Shown here in pieces: positions 29,967-62,777 of a stretch of DNA of 64,000 nucleotides (its first letter is position 1; each line of letters begins with the position of its first letter). The notes under the pieces are model-generated. The model did not search any database and was not told the DNA's origin. It worked only from the letters and a program-made list of their open reading frames with translations. The position numbers and the translations under genes are program-made. This stretch comes from Pectobacterium parmentieri (GTDB taxonomy: Bacteria; Pseudomonadota; Gammaproteobacteria; Enterobacterales; Enterobacteriaceae), in contig NZ_CP015749.1 in the NCBI RefSeq assembly GCF_001742145.1, positions 2,666,001 through 2,730,000 of the forward strand. Reading direction: 5' to 3'.

Positions 29967-30376
29967 TTATAGATTATTATACGAATGCTTACTTCTATGC
30001 TGGTGCTGCGTATCGGTTTCGTGCGTGTTAAACACCGTATTTCTCTGTGATATCGTCACACGCCCGACAAGGCGCGCTCAGTCGCCGCAGCGCCTTGACC
30101 ACTGGCTTTTCGGCGTGATTCGCGCCGCTATGCGGTTCCTTCGGTGTCCATGTCCGCTGCTCGGACCGCCTGCGACGTGCTCCCAGCACGGCGCAGGCTT
30201 TCGCGGCGTCCATGCCGCTCATCCAACGGCCATGTACACCTCAGCGCGAATTTTTACGCCTGGAACACACAGAACAGCGGCATATGTCGCAATAGATGAT
30301 TTTATCAGTGCGGGATCAGCGCCCGCTAAGGGCGCTGTTTAATTGGGGGTTTTGCTATTTAGATCCAATGATTTAA
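29967..30376. other. ganL-ganK intergenic region
   Basis: Mostly filled by the structured repeat copy A (30017-30260). A hairpin AGCGCCC GCTAA GGGCGCT (30319-30337) lies close to the ganK stop without a clear T-run. Confidence 0.7.
30017..30260. repeat. Structured interspersed repeat, copy A
   Basis: About 245 bp homologous to 51531-51778. It starts GTTTCGTGCG and ends near TTTTTACGCC. On the plus strand it can form four hairpins: CAAGGCGC/GCGCCTTG (30068-30097), CCGC TAT GCGG (30125-30135), a long stem GCCTGCG-AC-GTGCT / AGCAC-GG-CGCAGGC (30168-30198) and GCGGC/GCCGC (30203-30218). The minus strand has an open frame (30028-30222), but differences from copy B are not concentrated at third codon positions. 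Confidence 0.82.
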
Positions 30377-51492: not shown

Positions 51493-51904
51493 CGGAACAT
51501 GAGCACCAGTAAAATGCTAATTTAGGAGAAGTTTCGTGCGCTTAACGTTCGCTGTTTTTCTAGTAGCGCCCCGACGCGCCCGACCAAGGGCGGCTCAATT
51601 GCCGTCGCCCTTGGAACCCTGGCTTTTTTGGCGGGAAATTATGCCGCTGTGCGGTGCCTTCGGGAAAAGCATCCTCTTTGCGGACCGCCGCTGACGCGTT
51701 CCCGACGCAGCATCGGCTTGCGCGGCATCCATGCCGCTTATCCGAGAGTCTGCCTTTCCCTCAGCATAATTTACGCCAAGGGAAATACTCAGCGCACGAA
51801 ACCACGCCTAAATAGCAGTATTCGTGATTTAAAAACACTATGCGCAATGTGAGGACACCACCAACTATGCCGAATATATCCAACAATCCAGAGGGTCATG
51901 GAAG
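51493..51904. other. mdtC-mdtD interruption
   Basis: A gene-free 412-bp stretch inside what is one operon in E. coli. It is mainly structured repeat copy B (51531-51778). No clear terminator was found. Confidence 0.75.
51531..51778. repeat. Structured interspersed repeat, copy B
   Basis: Homologous to 30017-30260. Same start (GTTTCGTGCG) and similar end (AATTTACGCC). Hairpins correspond one to one: CCAAGGGCG/CGCCCTTGG (51584-51614), CCGC TGT GCGG (51644-51654), GCCG ... GCGT/ACGC ... CGGC (51687-51717) and GCGGC/GCCGC (51722-51737). In the first and third stems the bases differ from copy A but pairing is kept. Confidence 0.82.
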
Positions 51905-59067: not shown

Positions 59068-59162
59068 GCTGAGAAAACATAGAACGAAAAATAAGCGTAG
59101 TGATACTACTAGGAACCACCTCCTTGGCCAGCTCAATCTCCCTTGAGCTGGCTTTTCTTTTT
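59068..59162 (+). ncRNA. cyaR: Hfq-dependent small RNA CyaR
   Basis: CyaR represses ompX, nadE and other mRNAs by base pairing in E. coli and Salmonella. Here GCTGAGAAAACATA opens the RNA, as in E. coli. The conserved seed region AGGAACCACCTCCTTGGCC is intact. The terminator GCCAGCTCAA TCTCCC TTGAGCTGGC then TTTTCTTTTT keeps the TCTCCC loop while its stem bases differ from E. coli. The position after trhP/yegQ is the same. Length is about 95 nt. Confidence 0.92.
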
Positions 59163-62618: not shown

Positions 62619-62666
62619 AGGTCTCCCAACCGGCGTGGAAGAAAGCGGTAACCGGTGGGGAATACC

Positions 62667-62748
62667 GTGACTTCCCTACGCTGGCATTATCCAGATCAGG
62701 TGGTACGGGTATTTCTCAGCCTTCACAAAGAAGGGCACCCCGAGTCAT
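62667..62748 (-). ncRNA. TPP riboswitch (Thi-box) of thiMD
   Basis: On the minus strand the aptamer reads GACTCGGGGTGCCCTTC, then GTGAAGGCTGAGAAATACCC, then GTACCACCTGATCTGGATAA, then TGCCAGCGTAGGGAAGTC. These are the conserved Thi-box elements, including the CUGAGA pyrimidine-binding loop and the ACCUGAUCUGGAUAAUGCCAGCG pyrophosphate arm. It lies about 50 bases upstream of thiM. In E. coli the thiM riboswitch blocks ribosome access when TPP binds. Confidence 0.96.
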
Positions 62749-62777
62749 TTACTACGCTTCGCAGCATAAGTAAGTGA
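62745..62777 (-). other. Hairpin just upstream of the TPP aptamer
   Basis: TCATTTACT and AGTAAGTGA pair with one mismatch around a 15-base loop. The inner arm shares bases with the 5' strand of the aptamer's closing stem. Confidence 0.45.

Follow-up and report, generated by a model that had tools for sequence, protein, structure and literature searches.

Two copies of a structured repeat in the window

The window analysed here is a stretch of 64,000 nucleotides from Pectobacterium parmentieri (NZ_CP015749.1, positions 2,666,001 to 2,730,000), and it carries two copies, A and B, of a structured repeat (Table 1). Copy A is located behind a frame resembling a porin and faces one resembling an ABC ATPase, and the frames around copy B are presumably mdtC and mdtD. 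A first-pass annotation, made by a model from the letters of the window, had described two homologous segments with the same hairpins in the same order, and all of these were present as claimed. Core spans were set by a covariance model built in this analysis, which returned 30016-30260 for copy A, one base off the span claimed earlier, and 51531-51777 for copy B.

The core is approximately 245 nt long, and fuller forms add flanking inverted repeats or a second core placed tail to tail. In the consensus, a variable outer hairpin (found in many copies) is followed by hairpin 1, hairpin 2, a linker and an AT-rich stem, which closes a small hairpin and a long stem bearing hairpins D and E. The near-invariant start, GTTTCGTGCG, pairs with CGC.CGAC to form hairpin 1, and the multibranched domain of copy A consists of the outer AT-rich stem, the small hairpin, the long stem and hairpins D and E.

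Table 1. Features of copies A and B, in window coordinates. Helix numbers and paired fractions refer to the structure derived from 50 copies.
Feature	Position	Strand	Description
Copy A core	30016..30260	+ (consensus direction)	GTTTCGTGCG to TTTTTACGCC; covariance model 255.3 bits, L001:1507-1751
Copy A hairpin 1	30019..30067	+	TCG.GCGT / ACGC.CGA stem, variable loop; helix 1, 99.4% of cells paired
Copy A hairpin 2 (stem 1 of the first-pass annotation)	30068..30097	+	CAAGGCGC/GCGCCTTG; helix 2, 99.3% paired
Copy A multibranched domain	30112..30260	+	Helices 3-8; DNA fold
Copy A hairpin D (stem 3 of the first-pass annotation)	30168..30198	+	Helix 7, 98.6% paired; minus-strand loop has GGA
Copy A hairpin E	30203..30218	+	Helix 8, 99.7% paired; minus-strand loop AUGGAC = AYGGAY
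Copy B core	51531..51777	+	Covariance model 214.3 bits, L014:1458-1704; between two plus-strand frames
Copy B hairpin 2	51584..51614	+	CCAAGGGCG/CGCCCTTGG; from the sequence, helix 2
Copy B hairpin E	51722..51737	+	Minus-strand loop AUGGAU; from the sequence
Copy B flanking inverted repeat, left arm	51531..51542	+	GTTTCGTGCGCT; inversion junction at this site in other species
Copy B flanking inverted repeat, right arm	51791..51802	-	AGCGCACGAAAC on plus

Copy number and distribution

With copy A as the query, BLAST returned 28 places at E≤10 in the 5.03-Mb genome from which the window was taken, 19 of them below 1e-4, and another copy used as the query returned 25 places at E≤0.001; in these counts, a copy split by an insert registers as two places. 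A hand tally of loci put the number of copies in this genome, whole or partial, at 23 or more, those in the window included and one further decayed place (L255) omitted. The two copies described at first are both real, but they are not the only ones. Among near full-length BLAST matches, the own-genome copy nearest to copy A is only 81% identical to it, and the spread of the repeat in this genome is therefore old.

The repeat was found in all 25 Pectobacterium genomes searched (the own genome included; 16 to 37 matches each), yet no description of it was found in the literature searched, the coverage of which takes in few subscription papers. In a family-wide sample it occurred in 9 of 119 genomes, again including the own one, and the matches listed from a pattern scan include Brenneria, Dickeya, Samsonia, Candidatus Symbiopectobacterium, Winslowiella and a record titled Serratia marcescens. 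The family covariance model had matches in at least 20 of 295 genomes of the order, at least three of them in the own genus; these counts are lower bounds, as seven candidates were scored per genome. Searches of plasmids, phages and E. coli with copy A were negative, and divergent relatives as queries had part-length matches in Pantoea, Klebsiella, Citrobacter and E. coli records. At G110:C1 (approximately 1431574-1432707; L071, L079 and L085), short partial matches recur about every 550 bases, a pattern that may come from a tandemly arrayed distant relative.

Folding, covariation and coding

Folded as single-stranded DNA and compared with 200 dinucleotide shuffles, copies A and B had z scores of -4.58 and -4.30, respectively, and RNA folding of either strand over slightly wider spans gave -3.08 to -4.09, likewise against 200 dinucleotide shuffles. 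Covariation was scored on an alignment (A2) of 50 copies, namely 48 of the 50 rows of an earlier set (L212 and L111 omitted) and both window copies. RNAalifold on the plus strand gave 51 pairs, 32 of them with double changes; in helix 2, five of six pairs were so changed. Standard pairs occupied 96.8% of 2530 cells versus 82.9% after shuffling, a fraction attained by 0 of 500 shuffles. Double-changed paired cells numbered 371 against a shuffle mean of 102, a count inflated by related rows and reached in none of 500 shuffles. The covariation score was 0.426 versus 0.166 for shuffles (0 of 500 reached it) and 0.036-0.092 for structures slid by one to three columns, over which the true structure is favoured because it was derived from the scored rows themselves. 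Further pair types were no more numerous than in shuffles (70 versus 69.8). The first-pass annotation had proposed a selected RNA or DNA structure and had named missing covariation among many homologues as the outcome that would speak against it; the 50 copies do covary, which supports the proposal.

That coding is less likely had also been suggested. The minus-strand frame is stop-free and of frame-preserving length in only 7 of the 50 copies, copy A among them, and Pfam gave no match for either ORF over copy A; the repeat is therefore non-coding, a minus-frame protein being ruled out by the loss of the frame in most copies together with the lack of a Pfam match. Synonymous bias in this frame was assessed through frame conservation only.

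Four groups of orthologous copies, which we picked at the sites of copies A and B, comprised 9, 7, 5 and 3 copies; their cores were 92-96% identical, versus 78-91% for a nearby coding stretch. The 40-nt left flanks of the same groups were 49-83% identical and the 60-nt right flanks 51-93%, and in one group the right flank (93%) was level with the core. These results indicate that the core is constrained or homogenised.

Position and orientation relative to genes

Among 206 distinct cores with enough flanking sequence, 99 lay between convergent genes, 101 between tandem genes and five between divergent genes, and one overlapped a long ORF; these cores are not independent, as orthologous copies of one site were counted apart. 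The tandem cores were split evenly, with 50 in the direction of the genes and 51 against it. In the own genome, nine of the 23 copies were convergent, 14 tandem (six with and eight against the genes) and none divergent. Thus, the copies lie mostly at gene ends and avoid divergent gaps, and their orientation relative to the genes is free.

The gene upstream of copy A was matched in 23 of the 25 genus genomes, and all 23 carry the repeat at this site (site A), 14 in plus and nine in minus orientation, some copies being truncated or cut by a contig end. Whole or partial copies occur at the site of copy B (site B) in all 25 genomes. At a third site, that of copy L111 (site C), 15 copies are in plus and eight in minus orientation, and two genomes are without the repeat. 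Copy A and its identical counterpart in genome G006, both in plus orientation, are 95% identical to the minus copies L191 and L193 at the same site; the other plus copies of site A, none of which is one of its seven nearest, are at most 87% identical to copy A. Similarly, the site B minus copies L202, L211, L212 and L218 are 94-96% identical to the plus copies L197, L199, L219 and L220. There the flip is exact: perfect inverted repeats of 11-15 bp enclose the core, which is reversed between GTTTCGTGCGC and GCGCACGAAAC. At site C, identity between plus and minus copies does not exceed 87%, so that no inversion can be deduced for this site. A dif-like site at GTTTCGTGCGC was considered and rejected, as its second half was not conserved when inspected by eye.

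Of the 36 flanking-gene clusters that had three or more distinct copies, counted over the fetched loci, 26 contained both orientations. As the two sides of one site often form two clusters, the copies were also grouped into sites by hand, and about 14 of about 20 sites were mixed in orientation. Orientation was scattered across the species tree of the 25 genomes. At one Dickeya site, all six orthologues were filled, with two unlike alleles. Near-identical alleles in distant species, together with the unlike Dickeya alleles, indicate that whole intergenic alleles have been exchanged. The orientation pattern therefore arises only partly by inversion, the other part being allele exchange between species. 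The short flanking repeats may allow the unit to be inverted by rare recombination or strand switching.

The first-pass annotation was right about the structure, but contained neither this flipping in place nor the distant kin matching RF01731 that are described below. The flips provide matched pairs of orientations with which to ask how a structure at the 3' end affects a gene. The Correia elements of Neisseria are likewise small intergenic repeats for which inversion has been reported; according to the accessible part of that report, their inversion is stress-linked (PMC10969869), whereas the differences seen here are between species only.

Arrangement of copies and search for a mobiliser

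Neighbour relations among 179 distinct copies were 15 tail to tail, none head to head and five on the same strand. Ten loci, five of them at site B, account for the 15 tail-to-tail relations, and each pair of full copies enters this count two times. With orthologous copies counted apart, 31 of 237 had an inverted 5'-end motif no more than 150 nt from the 3' end, and 0 of 237 had one on the 5' side. Terminal inverted repeats are clear at site B and in L111; this copy has a hairpin on the left, and the right side of its core is followed by GCGCACGAAAC and the hairpin in inverted form. Tail-to-tail pairs are also found among relatives in three other genera (g20, g49 and g120). In the site B gap (window positions 51531-51802; L200, L205, L208-L210 and L214-L216), two or three copies, whole or partial, are often present together, tail to tail or in tandem.

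In REPINs and BIMEs, inverted modules of 20-40 nt are placed tail to tail behind genes. The 15 tail-to-tail relations against no head-to-head ones, and the pairs in three other genera, would suit a repeat of this type whose modules are moved by a Y1 (RAYT-type) transposase. However, the modules here are about 240 nt long and no linked RAYT was found. A Y1_Tnp domain (Pfam) occurs in 8 of the 25 genus genomes, with the repeat in all 25, and a core lay within the fetched 1.5-kb flank at only one of 24 Y1 loci; a single Y1 gene, coding for 171 aa, is present in the own genome. RAYT mobilisation is thus unsupported, and we regard a REPIN/BIME-like origin as improbable.

No mobiliser of another kind was found near the copies either: no transposase was recognised by eye among the 25 largest clusters, or by Pfam among 10 representatives, of 987 ORFs near part of the loci. 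Target duplications were not recognised at site A, site C or one Dickeya site. Clean empty sites were likewise not found, with none of 23 at site A, none of six at the Dickeya site and, at site C, two of 25 without the repeat that were rearranged or unlike. The repeat is short, non-coding and multicopy, as is a MITE. It might derive from an insertion sequence with Tn5-like ends, since some copies have CTGTCTCTTA-like tips, and outer tips such as CTGTCTCTTATTCACATT (L053, L036, L037 and L140) resemble the mosaic end of Tn5. This origin appears very unlikely, as the outer hairpin is variable or decayed in many copies and neither a target duplication nor a transposase nearby was recognised at the sites and ORFs just listed.

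Many copies (L018, L019, L008, L101, L107, L230, L400 and others) carry a structured insert of approximately 77 nt in the loop of hairpin D. The same unit is present in L280, inside another palindromic repeat, and in L296, inside a repeat that we assume to be ERIC from its appearance. It is as if the insert targets hairpin loops.

ERIC and YPAL/RU-2, as the available text of one study describes them, are dispersed, palindromic, intergenic and probably non-autonomous, like the repeat reported here, and YPAL targets adjoin dyad symmetries (PMC2229807). By those descriptions, they are set apart from it by their lengths of 127 bp and approximately 168 bp, respectively, versus a core of 245 nt (PMC2229807).

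Which strand is read

A functional single strand should accept G.T on itself and not A.C. The plus-strand structure had 57 G.T and 27 A.C among 2530 cells. Without the pairs 113-252 and 207-212, helix ends that were excluded after the table had been seen, it had 21 and 25 of 2431, and in variable pairs only 8 and 23 of 1536. An earlier fold of 46 copies had given 61 G.T and 17 A.C on the plus strand, and 108 and 26 on the minus strand. As each fold selects pairs suiting its own strand, alignment A2 was folded both ways. The plus-fold pair set had 59 G.T and 28 A.C, and the minus-fold set, read on the minus strand, had 128 and 14. Read on the plus strand, the 47 pairs common to both folds had 10 G.T and 25 A.C, and the union of both sets 63 and 131. 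Wobbles in the common pairs were rare, with 25 of 2334 cells on the minus strand versus 10 on the plus strand. This both-strand check supersedes our first count, on the plus-strand structure without the two helix-end pairs, from which no polarity had been read. Five tRNAs in the fetched DNA had 11 G.T and no A.C among 119 pairs, a tiny control drawn with a tRNA-finding program that itself favours such pairs.

The minus strand also folds more stably in 48 of the 50 copies (mean difference, 10.9 kcal/mol). Minus-only pairs covary too (columns 121-132 and 137-243), and the minus-only pair 165-220 is G.U on the minus strand in 48 of 50 copies. On this strand, GGA (TCC on plus) is found in hairpin E of all 50 copies and in hairpin D of 48; pairing does not account for these near-invariant loops. 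The loop of hairpin E fits AYGGAY in copies A and B, and that of hairpin D is NGGGA. The signal in favour of the minus strand is mild and changes with the set of pairs counted. From these folds, a folded minus-sense single strand, whether RNA or ssDNA, seems to fit the data best.

Alternatively, the elements may be strand-neutral DNA palindromes, in which arm-to-arm copying at replication keeps the arms complementary and no strand is read. The covariation is mostly Watson-Crick in nature, as the 371 double-changed cells illustrate when set beside the 57 G.T and 27 A.C of the plus-strand structure, and this is consistent with such copying. The minus-strand preference and the conserved loops speak against it. 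Because of the mild preference in the both-strand check, strand neutrality is no longer our first choice and is now considered rather unlikely, and the two RNA readings discussed below have gained in probability.

Relatives in Rfam and a possible link to CsrA

The window copies do not reach the gathering cut-off (43 bits) of the Rfam family RF01731, TwoAYGGAY: copy A had no hit at E≤10, and copy B had a weak minus-strand match of 27.8 bits. Four relatives found with the covariance model of this repeat (L413, L410, L415 and L416) do match the family, at 45.9-52.8 bits, on the strand opposite to the consensus and within family model positions 43-124. As far as the accessible text of its description goes, TwoAYGGAY is a probable RNA, probably not cis-regulatory, that occurs in human gut samples, Gammaproteobacteria and Clostridiales (PMC2864571); Rfam's own type for the family is Cis-reg. 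Compared with that text (PMC2864571), the likeness lies in the inner junction and in the two GGA-loop hairpins on the minus strand. By contrast, the second loop here is NGGGA rather than AYGGAY, and hairpins 1 and 2 and the outer domain are extra. The repeat is thus related to TwoAYGGAY as a larger, diverged relative of elements having this inner domain, outside the family as it is defined. This suggests that TwoAYGGAY, listed in Rfam among structured RNAs, is, at least in part, the inner domain of a dispersed palindromic repeat that flips.

The portion of one paper available to us proposes, on motif grounds, that TwoAYGGAY binds CsrA (PMC4333381). The repeat described here could then be a dispersed regulatory RNA, with a minus-strand transcript whose two GGA loops bind CsrA/RsmA, either at sites in 3' UTRs or as a distributed sponge. 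The minus-strand GGA in 50 and 48 of 50 copies, the AYGGAY loop of hairpin E in copies A and B, the lean of wobbles and stability towards the minus strand, and the minus-strand matches of relatives to TwoAYGGAY are all consistent with this. In P. atrosepticum, several sRNAs predicted in silico and confirmed by RNA-seq are 237-255 nt long and lie in 3' UTRs, according to the part of that study at hand, some of them bearing the label TPP/isrH (PMC4710047). They may be copies of this repeat, a comparison made by size. However, orientation is unbiased relative to genes, flips in place exchange the transcribed strand, and wobbles are few for an RNA (25 of 2334 common-pair cells on the minus strand). 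A CsrA-binding RNA is therefore a possibility that we hold at well below even chances. Because the GGA loops are nearly invariant, the question of CsrA/RsmA binding lends itself to a direct test.

A bolder variant takes the flips into account. The copies might be invertible modules placed behind genes across the genome, each flip switching a CsrA/RsmA site (the pair of minus-strand GGA loops) into or out of the upstream transcript. We consider this speculative and improbable; if true, post-transcriptional regulation in soft-rot bacteria would include a distributed layer controlled by the orientation of the modules.

What the repeat may be

We favour, and would give an even chance to, the reading that the repeat is old, non-coding and of a MITE/BIME-like kind, flips in place, and has a folded minus strand that is read for the sake of the element itself. 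The minus strand would act in its folded form, either as ssDNA recognised by a protein while the element is replicated or transferred, or as the element's own RNA. As orientation relative to genes is free, the folded strand would probably serve the element and not the neighbouring gene. Several results weigh against this reading: the strand signal is mild and varies with the pairs counted, wobbles being rare on either strand; part of the orientation pattern reflects exchange of whole alleles between species; and the sites and ORFs examined yielded no target duplication, clean empty site or mobiliser. In addition, the higher identity of the cores (92-96%) than of the coding stretch (78-91%) is as compatible with a host function, or with gene conversion, as it is with a selfish element.

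At the gathering level, the Rfam matches in the window are limited to the CyaR sRNA (59074-59158) and a TPP riboswitch (62656-62752).
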